This document shows, in pieces, positions 5,149 to 64,000 of a stretch of DNA of 64,000 bases. The notes beneath the pieces were generated by a model. It was not told where the DNA came from and did no database searches. It saw only the letters and a program-made list of their open reading frames with translations. The stretch spans positions 48,628 through 112,627 of the forward strand of contig JAFLJS010000055.1 of the NCBI GenBank assembly GCA_022712895.1, read 5' to 3'. The DNA is from Desulfocapsa sp. Lineage in GTDB: Bacteria > Desulfobacterota > Desulfobulbia > Desulfobulbales > Desulfocapsaceae. The translations under genes were made by a program, and so were the position numbers. The number at the start of each line of letters is the position of its first letter. Within the stretch, counting starts at the first letter, position 1.

Positions 5149-6414
5149 TTAGACAGTACAACCATCCTCAACTTCCTTTCCGGGGAACCCAGCTCCGCTT
5201 GTCATCGAATTGATTATACAATTTCTACCAACACTGACCCCGGAAGGGATACACGCATCCTTTCCAACCAGACTGATTCCGGTATAGAGATGTTTGGGGT
5301 TCTCAATATTGGGCACAGTATGGTTGGTACCTACTCCCACACTGGCATCACCATCAACCTGCACCCGTTTATCAAAGATAGCAAGATCGACCACACTGTT
5401 TTTTCCTACAACACAATCGGCAAAAAGGATTGAATCCCGAACAACCGCACCCTCTTCAACAACAACACCAGGTGCCAGAACCGAGTTTTCCACCGTCCCC
5501 CGGATAATACAGCCAGCAGATATCATCGACGAACGAACGCGCGCATTATTCCCGTATCTGGCTGGTGCCCGATCGGCAGGACGGCCGTCTGCCTCAACAT
5601 TTGTGCGAATGCCCCAGGCTTCCGGTGAAATGGGACTATTTTTACGGATCACATCCATATTGGCTTCCCAATAAGATTGTATAGTTCCCACATCACGCCA
5701 ATATCCGTAGAAAGGATAGGCAAAAACATTGTCTTCGGCAATGGCTCGCGGTAAAATATGTAATCCAAAATCAACTTCTTCCCTGTCTTTATAGAGGGAA
5801 TTAAGGAGATACTTATAATCAAAGACATAAATCCCCATGGATGCAAGATTTGTCTTGGGGTTTTCAGGCTTTTCTTCCCAATCAATGATACGATTTTCAT
5901 CGTCAATGATTCCTGCCCCAAACTGATGAATCTCGCTCATGGGAACCACCATCATACCAATGGTCACATCCGCCTTTTTGAAACGATGGCATTCGAGCAT
6001 CGCATCAAAATCCATATTATAAATATGATCGCCGGAGAGAAGAATGACCTCGTCGGCTGGATTTTTTTCCAGGAAATCAATATTTTGACGAACGGCGTCA
6101 GCCGTACCTTTATACCAGTCCGAATCCTGAAAACCCGTATGGGGCGGCAGGATCTTCAGTCCCCGACTCCGCCCGGTAAAATCCCAGGCTTCACCGGTTC
6201 CCAGGTGACGCATAAGGGAAAGCGGCTTATATTGAGTAAGTACTCCCACTTTTGTAAGCCCGGAATTCATCACGTTGCTGAGACTGAAATCAATAATCCT
6301 ATACATTCCGGCAAAGGGCACTGCCGGTTTTGCCCGACTCTGAACCAGAATATTTAAACGGCTGCCGACGCCACCGGCAAGGAGCAGAACCAATGCCTCT
6401 TTCTTATTTCTCAT
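5149..6414 (-). CDS. glgC: Glucose-1-phosphate adenylyltransferase
   Basis: LAGGVGSRLNILVQSRAKPAVPFAG, GTADAVRQNIDFL, LSGDHIYNMDF; C-terminal beta-helix repeats. Confidence 0.92.
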   Translation of the reverse strand: MRNKKEALVLLLAGGVGSRLNILVQSRAKPAVPFAGMYRIIDFSLSNVMNSGLTKVGVLTQYKPLSLMRHLGTGEAWDFTGRSRGLKILPPHTGFQDSDWYKGTADAVRQNIDFLEKNPADEVILLSGDHIYNMDFDAMLECHRFKKADVTIGMMVVPMSEIHQFGAGIIDDENRIIDWEEKPENPKTNLASMGIYVFDYKYLLNSLYKDREEVDFGLHILPRAIAEDNVFAYPFYGYWRDVGTIQSYWEANMDVIRKNSPISPEAWGIRTNVEADGRPADRAPARYGNNARVRSSMISAGCIIRGTVENSVLAPGVVVEEGAVVRDSILFADCVVGKNSVVDLAIFDKRVQVDGDASVGVGTNHTVPNIENPKHLYTGISLVGKDACIPSGVSVGRNCIINSMTSGAGFPGKEVEDGCTV

Positions 6415-7682
6415 TTCAGCACCTCCCCGGCAGCAACAACATTATTTTTCGGCCACTTATCATGCTCCTGATGGGGATATATTGTTGCACCTTCACCAAT
6501 GACCATGGCCTCCGGTACATGATTATCCCAGCCGACAACGGTTACCAGTCCACTGGTATCTCCAACAGCTCCCCCTATGGAGACAGACTCACCGAAACTC
6601 GAATTCACATCTGTAATGACTTTATTAAATGAGCAGTTTTCACCAATTTTATTATTGAAAAAAAGGACAGAATTCTCAATAACCGCGCCTTTCGCAACAT
6701 GAACACCAGGGAACAGGATGGAATTTAAAACCGTTCCTTCCACGACACAACCGTTATACACCAGGCTATTATGCACGGTGGCATTCTCCCTGATAAGGGC
6801 TGGTTGCGCATCCCGGATTCCACGATGCTCCATATTGGTACGCAATCCCCAGGCTTCCATATCTATGGGAGGATTTTCCCCCAAGAGATCCATATTTGAC
6901 TGCCAGTACTCTTCCACCGTACGGGTATACCCCCAATATCCCTTGTATTTATAACCGTACACTTTCTTACCAGCGGCCAGCAGGAGGGGAATAATATCTT
7001 TTCCAAATTCAAACGAATCGGCGTCTTGATTCTCCGCCAACGCCCCATACAAAACGTCAGGCTTGAAAACAAGGACCGTCAGAGATGCCCAATCTGCCTC
7101 TGGTTTTTCAGGTTTTTCCCAATAGGCTGTCACCCGCCCGCCCAGTTCCCCATCCTCATCATCAATGGCTGCCACACCAAAACGCTTAGCCTTCTCCCGT
7201 GCAACTTTTAGAAAAGCAATGGTGACATCGGCATCTTTCTGATGATGATAGGCGATGATATCCTGGTAATCCATTTTGTAGATGTGATCCCCCGAGAGAA
7301 TCAGAATCTCTTCCGGCTCATGATAACGTACAAAATCCAGATTTTTGTAAACGGCATCTGCCGTGCCACGATACCAGTCAGTACAGGCTTTCAGCTCACT
7401 ATTACCCTTTACCGGCGGTAGAATAGACACGCCGCGATTACGGCCAATCATGTCCCAGGCGGCTCCTGTGCCGATATGATTTAGAAGAGAATAACTTCGA
7501 TACTGCGAGAGAATGGCAACCTGTTCTATTCCAGAATGGAGTAGATTGCTTAAGGGGAAATCAATTACTCTGGCAAAGCCACCAAAAGGAACTGCTGACT
7601 TGGGACGATAATACGTAAGGACGTCCAGTTCATCAACACGGCCGCCAGCCAGGATCATTGCAAGGGTAGAAGGCTTCAACAT
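6411..7682 (-). CDS. Glucose-1-phosphate adenylyltransferase paralog (GlgD-like divergent nucleotide loop)
   Basis: LAGGRVDELDVLTYYRPKSAVPFGG, RGTADAVYKNLDF, LSGDHIYKMDY. Confidence 0.85.
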   Translation of the reverse strand: MLKPSTLAMILAGGRVDELDVLTYYRPKSAVPFGGFARVIDFPLSNLLHSGIEQVAILSQYRSYSLLNHIGTGAAWDMIGRNRGVSILPPVKGNSELKACTDWYRGTADAVYKNLDFVRYHEPEEILILSGDHIYKMDYQDIIAYHHQKDADVTIAFLKVAREKAKRFGVAAIDDEDGELGGRVTAYWEKPEKPEADWASLTVLVFKPDVLYGALAENQDADSFEFGKDIIPLLLAAGKKVYGYKYKGYWGYTRTVEEYWQSNMDLLGENPPIDMEAWGLRTNMEHRGIRDAQPALIRENATVHNSLVYNGCVVEGTVLNSILFPGVHVAKGAVIENSVLFFNNKIGENCSFNKVITDVNSSFGESVSIGGAVGDTSGLVTVVGWDNHVPEAMVIGEGATIYPHQEHDKWPKNNVVAAGEVLK

Positions 7683-7807: not shown

Positions 7808-7830
7808 ACTTAGCCATCTGAAATTTTAGT
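7808..7830 (+). repeat. Partial copy of the ACTTAACCATCTAAA repeat
   Basis: CACTTAGCCATCTGAAATTTTAG versus TACTTAACCATCTAAATTCTGGG. Confidence 0.5.
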
Positions 7831-7912
7831 ATCTTATAACTTTCTTTCGCATTGTTTGGAAAGAAGCTGGTGAAGGTACTTACACCGGCTATTATTCGTT
7901 ACCGGTGCTAGT
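7828..7912 (+). repeat. Double-hairpin dispersed element, copy A
   Basis: AGTATCTTATAACTTTCTTTC...GAAAGAAGCTGGTGAAGGTACT, then ACACCGGCTATTATTCGTTACCGGTGCTAGT. Confidence 0.75.
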
Positions 7913-7958
7913 TTTTTACTTAACCATCTAAATTCTGGGTTTTTACGAGTTTATCAAT
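7913..7958 (+). repeat. Short dispersed repeat TTTTTTACTTAACCATCTAAATTCTGGGTTTTTACGAG
   Basis: Matches reverse complement of 600-645. Confidence 0.8.
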
Positions 7959-7974
7959 GTTACAAAAAAAACTG

Positions 7975-9096
7975 TTATTTCATGTGTCTTGTCGCCAAAC
8001 GTTTTAAAGCAAGTGTTGTAAATTCTTTATCGCCAAGCTCTAGATTCTCCAAAGGAACTTCAGCACGGGCAGCTTCCTTATGTCCTCCTGCCGAACCTAC
8101 AGCACCAAATATTCGTTCTGCCAGTTTTCCGGCACTCTTTCGATAACCATCACAGCGAAAGATCACCACCAGTTTGCCCTTGTGGGTTCCCGAAACCAGA
8201 ACCCAGTCGATTTTATCCACGTGGTTGAGGAAATCAGCAATATTTACCAGAATATCAGGGCTCCTCACACTCCCCAGATGGCTGTAATATCGACCTTTTG
8301 AGTATCTGAGCTTATTCAACGCCACATTGAAATATTTGAGTTCTGAACGTCTGAGATCCGTCAGCTCGAATTTTTTCACCAGGTTACGGTTTGCAACGTT
8401 AAACAGGTACCGAAAAGAGATACCATCAGCCAAAACTGAATGTTTAGAAAAATCCTGGGTATCAACTTTGATGGCATAAAAAAGAGCCGTTGCCAGGGCG
8501 GCTGACGGTTTCATGTTGGCCGCCCGCAAATACTCCACCAGCATAGTGGAGCACGCACCATATTGCGGTCTAATATCTACAAAAGGCACCTCATATCCGC
8601 ATTTCAGTGGATGATGGTCAATGATGGCATCAAACGCTATCCGCTCAAACACTGGCAGATGCTTTGGCTGTGAATCAACCAGCACCTTTTTAGAAAATTC
8701 ACTGACTTTAACACTGCCAAGACGTTCAAGCGGGATCTTCAAACGATCCACCATTGCCACATTATTCAAGCGCCTGATTTCGTTGGGATGGGCAATTGTC
8801 ACCGACTTTACCCGGTAACGCAAAAGACGTTTAATCGCCATTGAACAAGCTAAAGCGTCAGGATCAGCATTTATGCAGATAAGCACCTCATCCTCTTTTT
8901 CAAAAACTGCCCAAAATCTTTCTAGACGTTCTTTGGCACTTGTTCTTGCCGCTACGTGACAACCGTGATTCTGTTTTTTTCGAGCCATGCACAGTTCAGC
9001 AGTAGAGTAACCAATACTGCTTTCCCCTTCTATTTTGTTTTTTAGGTTCAGTATAGCAAATTCCAAAGCGATAGCTGAACAAGTTGTTTGCTCCAC
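7975..9096 (-). CDS. DHH/DHHA1 family phosphoesterase (NrnA-like)
   Basis: INADPDALACSMAIKRLL, AIIDHHPL, GSAGGHKEAARA motifs. Confidence 0.88.
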   Translation of the reverse strand: MEQTTCSAIALEFAILNLKNKIEGESSIGYSTAELCMARKKQNHGCHVAARTSAKERLERFWAVFEKEDEVLICINADPDALACSMAIKRLLRYRVKSVTIAHPNEIRRLNNVAMVDRLKIPLERLGSVKVSEFSKKVLVDSQPKHLPVFERIAFDAIIDHHPLKCGYEVPFVDIRPQYGACSTMLVEYLRAANMKPSAALATALFYAIKVDTQDFSKHSVLADGISFRYLFNVANRNLVKKFELTDLRRSELKYFNVALNKLRYSKGRYYSHLGSVRSPDILVNIADFLNHVDKIDWVLVSGTHKGKLVVIFRCDGYRKSAGKLAERIFGAVGSAGGHKEAARAEVPLENLELGDKEFTTLALKRLATRHMK

Positions 9097-15595: not shown

Positions 15596-15672
15596 TGAGT
15601 ACCTTACAAAAAAATATCTTTTAAAATCCATTTCGAAAAACACTTATTCCCGTTTACCATGTTTCTTCGGTA
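15596..15672 (+). repeat. Double-hairpin dispersed element, degraded copy E (tentative)
   Basis: GAGTACCTTACAAA...ACACTTATTCCCGTTTACCATGTTTCTTCGGTATCAG resembles copy B. Confidence 0.4.
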
Positions 15673-15677
15673 TCAGA

Positions 15678-17297: not shown

Positions 17298-17400
17298 AGT
17301 GTCTTACAAATTCTTTAAAAGTCCACGCAGATCTCGTGTTCTTCATTAAGAAATTGCTGAAGACACTTATGCCGGCTTAGCGTTCATCACCGGTATTAGT
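17298..17400 (+). repeat. Double-hairpin dispersed element, copy B
   Basis: AGTGTCTTACAAATTCTTTAA...TTAAGAAATTGCTGAAGACACT, then ATGCCGGCTTAGCGTTCATCACCGGTATTAGT. Confidence 0.75.
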
Positions 17401-17401
17401 C

Positions 17402-19570
17402 TCAAGCCCTTCTTGCCATAATAACCTGCTCCATCTGACGTAAATGCTGTAAAATCTGCTCCAGATGTTGGAGGCTACTCACTTCAAGTGCAATATTAAA
17501 ATCAGCGGTATTGGTGGGTGTTACATGGGCAGATATTTCAAGAATACTTGCTTCATCGCTACTGATTGATCCACTAATTGCGACAAAGATATTATTATCA
17601 TTCTCAGCACTCACCTGAATCTCGACCCGATGTTTGCTTTCACTGCTTCCCGACCATTCCACATCGATCCAACGCTGTGGATCAGTGGCTCGCAAGTTCA
17701 CACAATTTTCTTTATGTACAGAAATTCCGCGACCACTGGTGATAAATCCTAAAATAGCATCTCCCGGTACTGGATTGCAGCAACGGCTTATCTTCACCAG
17801 CATATCATCCATACCCTCGATAATAATACCAGGTCCTGATGACGGCCTGCGTTTCTCTGCCGTAGGCAAAGATGCGGCAGCACTCTCCTTCTGTTCTTTT
17901 TCTTTTCGTATTTCTGGCGGCTCGAGGGTTTTCACCAGATGGGGAATGGTAATCGTACCACTACCAACCTTGGCCAACATATCATCTAAGGAATTGCAGT
18001 GCAGGTCTTTCAAAAAATGTTTAACGTGACCACTTTTCACCATCTTTTTCAAAGTGGTATCGTAGCGTTTCAACTCTCTTTCACAAATCTCTCTACCGAG
18101 ATTCAGCGCCTTCTCCCTCTCTTCCTTACGCAACCATGAGCGAATACGAGATCGGGCACGCCCCGTTTTTACAAGCTCAAGCCAGCCTCTTCGCGGACGC
18201 TGTTTACGGGATGTAACAATTTCTAGAATATCACCATTCTGAATTTCGTATTTTAAAGGCACCAGCTTATCATTAACTTTCGCCCCCACACAGTGATCAC
18301 CAACCTCTGTGTGAATTGCATAGGCAAAATCGATGGGACTGGCGTTTTCAGGGAGCTCTTTTACTTCTCCCGCTGGTGTTAGAGCATACACCTCATGGGC
18401 ATAGAGTTCACCATGGACAGAATCCAAAAATTCCCTTGGATCTTCAACATCCTGAAGGTTTTTGACAAGACTCTTCAACCGTTTAAAAAGCCGGCTGTCG
18501 TTATCTGACGCACGTTGTCCTTCCTTATAGGCCCAGTGTGCGGCAACACCTTCCTGAGCGATTCGATCCATCTGCTCCGTACGGATCTGAATCTCAATAA
18601 AATGGCCTCTGGGGCCCACCACAGTAGTGTGCATGGACTGATAGTTATTAGCCTTGGGAACAGAGATAAAATCTTTAATGCGGCCAGGAACTGGTGCCCA
18701 GTTAGAATGGATCACACCAAGTGCCTCATAACACTCATTCACCGTGTTCACAATAATACGAAAAGCTACTTTATCGTAAACACGCTCAAGGGGAATCTGC
18801 TGCGCAACCAGCTTTTTGTAAATGGAATACAAATGCTTGGGTCGACCTATGATACGTGTGGGTTTGATATTATTGCTGCCCAATTTTTTATGAAGGATGG
18901 AAATTACTTCATCAACATAAAACTGTCTTTCTGCTAGCGAGCTTTCAAGTTTTAATACAAGTTCTGAATATTCTTCAGGATGAAGATGCTGAAAGGAGAG
19001 ATCTTCAAGCTCACGTTTCAGCCAGTCAATACCCAGGCGAGAGGCCAGAGGAGCATACAGATCTTTAGTCTCACGAGCTATTTCCCTTCTACGAGTTAAT
19101 TCCACAGTGTCAAGCAAACACATATCCTGCAATCTATCTGCAAGTTTTACTAACAAAACACGTACATCACTGGCTATGGCCAGCAACATTTTGCGGACGT
19201 TCTCTGCCTGATGGGTCAGTTTGGAATTGTAATGGACGTTGGCGATACGGGTGGAACCATCTACAATGTTGGCGACACTCTCTCCAAAATCTTTACGCAA
19301 ATCCTTTAACGGAATGCCTTCCTTGAGAACTCCATGGAGTAAACCTGCAACTACGGTATCCAGGTCAAGGTGCATGGAAGCAAGGGTAGATGCCACCTGT
19401 AGCGTATGATCCAGATAGGGAGTACCGGAGAAATGTTTTTTGTCTGCATGAGCGGAGACGACGACTTCCCAGGCACGGTCAATTGCCCCGAGATCAGCTC
19501 CATTCAAATAACTCCGGGTCAGGATTTTTAATCCATCCGGGTTCAGCATGGTGTTAAGTTCAGTATCCAT
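17402..19570 (-). CDS. RelA/SpoT (RSH) family (p)ppGpp synthetase with degenerate hydrolase motif
   Basis: Synthetase motif VYDKVAFRIIVNTVNECYEALGVIH...RIKDFISVPKANNYQSMHTTV; TGS and ACT domains. Confidence 0.93.
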   Translation of the reverse strand: MDTELNTMLNPDGLKILTRSYLNGADLGAIDRAWEVVVSAHADKKHFSGTPYLDHTLQVASTLASMHLDLDTVVAGLLHGVLKEGIPLKDLRKDFGESVANIVDGSTRIANVHYNSKLTHQAENVRKMLLAIASDVRVLLVKLADRLQDMCLLDTVELTRRREIARETKDLYAPLASRLGIDWLKRELEDLSFQHLHPEEYSELVLKLESSLAERQFYVDEVISILHKKLGSNNIKPTRIIGRPKHLYSIYKKLVAQQIPLERVYDKVAFRIIVNTVNECYEALGVIHSNWAPVPGRIKDFISVPKANNYQSMHTTVVGPRGHFIEIQIRTEQMDRIAQEGVAAHWAYKEGQRASDNDSRLFKRLKSLVKNLQDVEDPREFLDSVHGELYAHEVYALTPAGEVKELPENASPIDFAYAIHTEVGDHCVGAKVNDKLVPLKYEIQNGDILEIVTSRKQRPRRGWLELVKTGRARSRIRSWLRKEEREKALNLGREICERELKRYDTTLKKMVKSGHVKHFLKDLHCNSLDDMLAKVGSGTITIPHLVKTLEPPEIRKEKEQKESAAASLPTAEKRRPSSGPGIIIEGMDDMLVKISRCCNPVPGDAILGFITSGRGISVHKENCVNLRATDPQRWIDVEWSGSSESKHRVEIQVSAENDNNIFVAISGSISSDEASILEISAHVTPTNTADFNIALEVSSLQHLEQILQHLRQMEQVIMARRA

Positions 19571-38748: not shown

Positions 38749-38831
38749 TAGTACCCTATTGAATTTGATTTTAATAAAAATAAAATTCAATAAGGTATTT
38801 ATACCGGCTAACCTCTCAACACCGGTGTTAG
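38749..38831 (+). repeat. Double-hairpin dispersed element, copy C (rplF-rplR spacer)
   Basis: AGTACCCTATTGAATTT...AAATTCAATAAGGTATTT, then ATACCGGCTAACCTCTCAACACCGGTGTTAG. Confidence 0.75.
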
Positions 38832-46698: not shown

Positions 46699-47889
46699 TT
46701 ATTCGGAGATCTCACTAATTACGCCAGCACCAACAGTACGTCCACCTTCGCGAATTGCAAAACGAAGACCAACATCCATGGCAATTGGAGTAATAAGCTC
46801 AGCATCAACATGCAGGTTATCACCGGGCATTACCATCTCTACCCCTTCTGGAAGAGTGATAACTCCGGTCACATCTGTTGTTCTGAAGTAGAACTGGGGA
46901 CGATATCCGTTGAAGAATGGAGTGTGACGTCCACCCTCATCTTTTCCAAGGATATAGCACTCAGCTTTAAATTTTGTGTGCGGTAAGATGGAGCCTGGAG
47001 CTGCAAGAACCTGACCACGCTCAATATCTTCACGCTTGGTACCACGAAGTAATGCACCGATATTGTCACCAGCCTGACCTTCGTCAAGGAGCTTACGGAA
47101 CATCTCTACACCAGTACAAGTTGTCTTGGTTGTCTCTTTAATTCCAACAATTTCGATCTCATCACCAACGTGAACAACTCCACGCTCTACACGACCGGTT
47201 GCAACCGTTCCACGGCCAGAGATTGAGAAGACATCCTCAATTGGCATAAGAAAAGGCTGGTCAACGTCACGTTCTGGTTCTGGTATGTACGAATCGATAG
47301 CAGCCATCAGTTCATTGATGCATTTTGCTGCTTCTGGATCTTCTGGATTCTCAAGGGCTTTCAAAGCAGAACCGTGGATGATAGGAATATCATCGCCAGG
47401 AAACCCATACTTATCAAGGAGCTCACGAAGTTCCATCTCTACAAGTTCGATGAGTTCATCGTCATCAACCATATCGCATTTGTTGAGGAATACAACGATT
47501 GCGGGAACACCAACCTGACGAGCAAGCAGAATATGCTCACGGGTCTGAGGCATAGCACCATCATCTGCACCAACAACAAGAATAGCGCCATCCATCTGGG
47601 CAGCACCTGTGATCATGTTTTTGATGTAATCAGCATGGCCAGGACAATCCACGTGAGCGTAGTGACGATTTTCGGTCTCATACTCAACATGTGCGGTAGC
47701 GATGGTAATTCCACGCTCTTTTTCTTCAGGAGCTTTGTCGATGTTACTGAAATCAGTAAACTCGGCAAGTCCTTTAGTAGCCTGTACAGCAGTGATAGCA
47801 GCGGTCAAAGTAGTTTTACCGTGATCAATATGACCTACAGTACCTACATTGACATGCGGTTTTGTCCTTTGAAATTTTTCTTTTGACAT
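46699..47889 (-). CDS. tuf: Elongation factor Tu (copy 1)
   Basis: [33 protein letters not shown]. Confidence 0.98.
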
Positions 47890-61137: not shown

Positions 61138-61220
61138 CTACCAAATCTCAGAGAGATATCGGTATAAGTACCTTTATAAAATTTTCCCTACAAAATGAGA
61201 AAACAATTAATAAGGTACTT
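61138..61220 (-). repeat. Double-hairpin dispersed element, copy D (rplA-rplJ spacer)
   Basis: AAGTACCTTATTAATTG...ATAAAGGTACTT, then ATACCGATATCTCTCTGAGATTTGGT. Confidence 0.65.
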
Positions 61221-63715: not shown

Positions 63716-64000
63716 TTATTCGCTAATCTCACTAATTACGCCAGCACCAACAGTACGTCCACCTTCGCGAATTGCAAAACGAAGACCAACATCCATGGCA
63801 ATTGGAGTAATAAGCTCAGCATCAACATGCAGGTTATCACCGGGCATTACCATCTCTACACCTTCTGGAAGAGTGATAACTCCGGTCACATCTGTTGTTC
63901 TGAAGTAGAACTGGGGACGATATCCGTTGAAGAATGGAGTGTGACGTCCACCCTCATCTTTTCCAAGGATATAGCACTCAGCTTTAAATTTTGTGTGCGG
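63716..64000 (-). CDS. tuf: Elongation factor Tu (copy 2), C-terminal part; continues beyond window
   Basis: Almost identical to the 3' end of tuf copy 1; ends EISE*. Confidence 0.97.

Follow-up and report, generated by a model that had tools for sequence, protein, structure and literature searches.

A probable MITE-like family of palindromic elements inserted at TTA in Desulfocapsa and its relatives

Two kinds of small bacterial repeat come closest to the element reported here: the TA-type MITEs, among them ERIC, RUP and Correia (PMC2229807), and the REP sequences, which are defined by a GTAG tag and a linked RAYT (PMC3733652). Here, we describe an element that occurs four times in a window of 64,000 nt from a Desulfocapsa sp. 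contig (JAFLJS010000055.1; positions refer to this window unless another locus is named) and many times in related genomes. It is about 80–130 bp long, non-coding and present in many dispersed copies, which have inserted at TTA, carry TA at both borders, occur in tandem and differ in their interiors. Its dispersal, the empty orthologous sites, the near-identical young copies and the tandems identify it as a mobile element, not an RNA family. We consider it probable that these copies form a non-autonomous, MITE-like family of Desulfocapsa and its relatives, which is moved in trans by an enzyme encoded elsewhere and inserts at TTA.

The original prediction had placed four double-hairpin copies, A to D, in the window, and all four exist at these places with the stems described, although their true borders lie a few nucleotides inside the coordinates first given. 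They score 73–91 bits (A 91.2, B 77.2, C 75.0 and D 73.4 bits) with a covariance model whose training set consisted of seven copies from the own genome, A–D and three others. Copy A (7829–7908, + strand) consists of stem I (7829–7879) and hairpin II (7883–7908), with TA to its left (7827–7828) and right (7909–7910), and lies between a nucleotidyltransferase gene (6411–7682, −) and a DHH-family gene (7975–9096, −). Copy B (17299–17396, +), which has the compensatory variant AGTGTCTT/AAGACACT and an enlarged interior, directly follows the stop of a RelA/SpoT-type gene (17402–19570, −). The other two stand between ribosomal protein genes: copy C (38751–38828, +) between those for L18 (38368–38730, −) and L6 (38861–39403, −), to which it is antisense, and copy D (61140–61218, −) between those for L1 (61231–61935, −) and L10 (60403–60930, −), in sense orientation. 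A fifth, degraded copy, E (15599–15673, +), had also been proposed; it scores 17.7 bits with the seven-copy model, at an E-value of 0.14 within the window, and it may be a decayed copy, a relic at most.

Two other repeats are present in the window. The dispersed repeat ACTTAACCATCTAAATTCTGGGTTTTTACGAGTTTATCA lies at 7918–7956 (+) and 601–639 (−), and copy A sits between these two versions of it; the genome contains about 29 23-mer matches to it, exact or nearly so, relatives occur in other Desulfocapsa genomes (L268, L269, L270), and it lies close to the ends of several contigs. Two direct copies of a 285-nt repeat, 99% identical and 17 kb apart, occupy 46699–46983 and 63716–64000; the first begins at the 3′ end of a 396-aa ORF (46699–47889, −), the second reaches the end of the window, and a duplicated tuf gene beside the ribosomal genes is a likely cause.

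Copies outside the training set, in the own genome and in relatives, confirm the family, which is far beyond chance. The search for further copies that the original prediction had called for yields 40 matches at E ≤ 0.01 in the 3.68-Mb genome of the window with the covariance model, and 33 of 58 genomes are positive, the own genome included (32 of 57 relatives), the highest copy numbers among the relatives being 62, 52 and 40, while in many genomes from the same order the count is 0. An exact pattern of the conserved right end retrieves 49 loci from the genome collection, belonging to Desulfocapsa sp., Desulfobulbaceae and two MAGs named only Proteobacteria/Pseudomonadota. The viral contigs, plasmids and phages that we searched hold no match to the element, and the literature searched, which was covered in part, gave no description of such an element in Desulfocapsa. 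As the original prediction had it, we found no named family that matches. Within the own genome, 35 of 39 copies are intergenic, in DNA that a simple ORF caller finds to be 87% coding; several start at the stop codon of the preceding gene, and both orientations relative to genes occur. Copies persist chiefly between genes, often at stop codons. In the sister genome G016, a 6S RNA gene (L044 1255–1427, −) adjoins a copy of the element.

Clean insertions are evident from sister species in which the orthologous sites are empty. In G016, a close sister genome with 86–95% identity in the stretches compared, the site of copy C is empty and reads CATATTTTTTAGAATAAC, where the own genome reads CATATTTTTA, the element and then TAGAATTAC. 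The site of copy D is empty in G016 and G019, and G001 has a double hairpin of different sequence at the same TTTTA; the place corresponding to copy B in G016 holds no element, and loci L034 and L038 are empty there as well. At L032 (C41:24184), the empty sites read GTTAATGGACAATATTACC in G016 and AATTAATGGACAATATCACC in G001, and the filled site of the own genome reads GAATTA-(GTACC...GTGC)-TAACGGACAATATC, with TA on both sides of the element. The targets are AATTAATGG at L032, TTTTTACT at L034 and TTTTAAGG on the left side of copy A, and since three targets (TTAA, TTAC, TTTTAA) have no G after TTA, the G behind the left TTA is element DNA. For this reason, and because targets vary, integron attC sites and tetranucleotide insertion of the IS608 type were dropped as candidates.

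On the left, TTA/G (the slash marking the border) is present in 55 of the 69 copies for which a left arm was found, with T favoured further upstream; on the right, TA follows GGTGY in 68 of 81 distinct right ends and is altered in the remaining 13. The base after this TA is G in 57 ends, A in 6, T in 3 and C in 2. The early observation that most copies end in TAG holds (GGTGY is followed by TAG in 57 of 81 distinct right ends), but all or most of this right-end TA(G) comes from the target and not from the element. The target is a T-rich TTA, usually TTTTAG, and not a fixed tetranucleotide. Formally, the insertion is a 2-bp duplication of TA, and an element that brings its own A on the left and its own T on the right into T^A looks the same.

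The family consensus is TTTTA/GTRCCTTA-interior-TAAGGYACTTATRCCGGCTTACCGTTCATCACCGGTGY/TAG, with a short terminal inverted repeat, GYACC, of about 5 bp. Borders are conserved while interiors differ between copies. The interior is AAATTCTTTTC/GAAAAGAATTT in subfamily 1 and CAGAATATTTTC/GAAAATATTCTG in subfamily 2, of which 2b carries a 19-nt insert, and it is not palindromic in subfamily 3, whose whole copy measures about 125 nt. The loop of subfamily 2 contains, in reverse complement, the 15-nt AAAAAACAAGAAAAT of subfamily 3, and both are interrupted by the same insert. In some copies, module I is separated from the terminal hairpin by an extra CCCC/GGGG hairpin, a type that in G004 also forms the terminal hairpin. 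At L023, the own genome holds a subfamily 2 copy and G016 a subfamily 1 copy between identical flanks. Together, the interior groups, the extra hairpins and this difference show the element to be mosaic: its borders are conserved, and it is made up of short palindromic modules. Subfamily 3 left ends without the usual right end were considered as long elements and rejected, as they either decay or are closed, some 200 bp away at most, by another hairpin. A mosaic system in which an unrecognised kind of enzyme assembles, swaps and stacks TA-bounded palindromic modules, such that the element arose by modular assembly and not as the deletion product of one insertion sequence, seems to us an unlikely explanation.

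In G008, many subfamily 3 copies are mostly 94–98% identical to one another and many contigs end inside one, which indicates recent spread. Head-to-tail tandems occur as well, 9 of 81 right ends passing straight into the next copy with one TA shared. What produces these arrays? Circular intermediates integrated by a site-specific recombinase (a serine recombinase or an IS110-like one) with a TA core would make the array junction, GGTGYTAGTRCC, the circle junction; tandem junctions indeed hold exactly one TA, the ends have no long inverted repeats, and a 2-nt core would mimic the TA duplication. However, the targets are scattered and degenerate, and a mere preference for the right-end TTAG as a target would also produce tandems, so that we regard circle integration as very unlikely. 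In the MITE-like reading that we prefer, the right end of an older copy would itself be a good target, giving rise to head-to-tail arrays.

The double hairpin could alternatively be conserved as a structured RNA, that is, a riboregulator or an mRNA-processing element. Compared with dinucleotide shuffles, copies A–D have folding-energy z-scores of −3.3, −3.3, −5.8 and −5.9, and these together with the subfamily 1 and 2 copies tried range from −3.3 to about −8; two copies of the young and abundant subfamily 3, by contrast, fold no better than shuffles (z −0.3 and −0.2). The compensatory changes that the original prediction had read from four copies are borne out in the outer part of stem I and not convincingly in stem II. 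For the outer 8 bp of stem I in 53 distinct copies, 94.6% of cells are paired and 21 double-change cells are observed against 5.3 ± 1.8 expected, a number reached by 0 of 1000 shuffles, whose significance is overstated as the shuffles ignore the relatedness of the copies. Most of these changes are A–T to G–C at one pair; elsewhere C–G to T–A, C–G to A–T and T–A to C–G occur. In stem II, whose 3′ arm is conserved in sequence, three double changes against 0.8 expected (46 of 1000 shuffles reach 3) are not convincing. G–T wobbles in stem I (9 cells) are no commoner than A–C mismatches (12 cells), so that nothing here suggests selection for an RNA strand; hairpin-templated repair or gene conversion could be the source of the covariation. 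The Rfam comparison that had been proposed returned no match to any curated covariance model. As, in addition, copies lie in either orientation, copy C is antisense within a ribosomal protein gene cluster and orthologous sites are often empty, we judge a structured RNA family highly improbable.

Which enzyme moves the element? An HUH (Y1) transposase of the REP/RAYT or IS200/IS605 type would move a single strand via hairpins and attach it on the 3′ side of a short target, which is not duplicated. The hairpin beside the 3′ end, the fixed left border, the unequal ends and the head-to-tail arrays would suit such an enzyme, Y1_Tnp genes are present in the own genome and most relatives, and the empty sites are compatible with insertion after TTA without duplication. 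However, none of 30 Y1 loci inspected has a copy within about 1.5 kb, no Y1 match was obtained in the carrier G061 (genome of L092) and only fragments in another, G008/G058, both being incomplete MAGs, and one Y1 gene of the own genome is flanked by other repeats. The target, moreover, is not a fixed tetranucleotide, and orientation shows no bias relative to GC skew (21 of 39 copies in the own genome). We therefore hold an HUH transposase to be rather unlikely. The Y1_Tnp (RAYT-like) gene of 312 aa in question (L009, G000:C47:23522-26854) has GGGGGTCAGGCTTGACA repeats on both sides and seems to be part of a separate repeat system that possesses a transposase of its own.

A search for IS630-type DDE_3 (PF13358) genes gave no match in five carriers (G000, G002, G008, G016 and G004), and no insertion sequence sharing the element's ends was found, IS630-type ones having been looked for in these carriers. 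Among the copies, none was seen to enclose a long open reading frame, and we found no autonomous element. An inverted pair of copies in G031:C169 (L230, about 1290–1470 and 2220–2420) was rejected as one, as the intervening gene resembles a universal stress protein, judged by its sequence alone, with no transposase seen; a larger inverted repeat flanks this gene and encloses both copies.

We propose that a copy is built, as a mosaic, from palindromic modules bounded by TA. The first of these, module I (GTRCCTT ... AAGGYAC), with its outer 8 bp paired and its interior replaceable, would be followed in some copies by a CCCC/GGGG hairpin and then by the terminal hairpin TRCCGGCTTACCGTTCATCACCGGTGY or its CCCC/GGGG version. 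An enzyme encoded elsewhere, most likely a trans-acting transposase of the TA-duplicating kind, with DDE favoured, would recognise the ends and insert the element into T-rich TTA sites in such a way that TA flanks it on the left and on the right. The paired ends may matter as DNA for end recognition, or may be kept alike by hairpin-templated repair. Against a MITE-like family stand the search for an autonomous element or dedicated transposase, which found none, the inverted repeat of only about 5 bp, the right TA altered in 13 of 81 ends, and locus L023, where different subfamilies at one place in two species require conversion or repeated insertion. The element represents a MITE-like family of the sulfur-cycling Desulfocapsa that is abundant, recently active and apparently undescribed, and it accounts for some of the assembly breaks in Desulfocapsa MAGs. 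It also illustrates that compensatory changes can make a mobile DNA palindrome resemble a structured RNA.

How does the element compare with the systems already described? With TA-type MITEs it shares a size below 200 bp, the non-coding and dispersed nature of its many copies, and TA at both borders with empty sites, where duplication and element-borne A and T are inseparable; it has no long terminal inverted repeats (TIRs) and no known IS parent. ERIC (RU-1) of enterobacteria is likewise small, intergenic and highly structured, with TA at both ends, a short TIR and a copy number that varies between relatives (PMC2229807, PMC10969869), but there is no known sequence relation, and the Desulfocapsa element has freely differing modules and interiors, tandem arrays and another host. 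RUP of Streptococcus pneumoniae, of about 107 bp, is similarly non-autonomous with a TA target (PMC2229807), but its own 9-bp TIRs match IS630-Spn1, whereas the search of five carriers of the Desulfocapsa element found no IS630-type gene. Correia/NEMIS elements of Neisseria are TA-bounded MITEs with size variants through internal sequence and with hairpin transcripts (PMC2229807); they have 24-bp TIRs, unlike the roughly 5 bp and unequal ends found here. REP sequences with RAYT are also palindromic, intergenic and arranged in mosaic clusters (PMC3733652), but the present element is longer, has TA at both borders and shows neither a GTAG-type tetranucleotide at the hairpin foot nor a linked RAYT, that is, a Y1 gene flanked by its copies. 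The mobile palindromic element foreseen in the original prediction is thus upheld as MITE-like, by its empty sites and tandems, and not as a strict REP. In conclusion, this is a new family of a kind already well known, distinguished by an unusual degree of module exchange.
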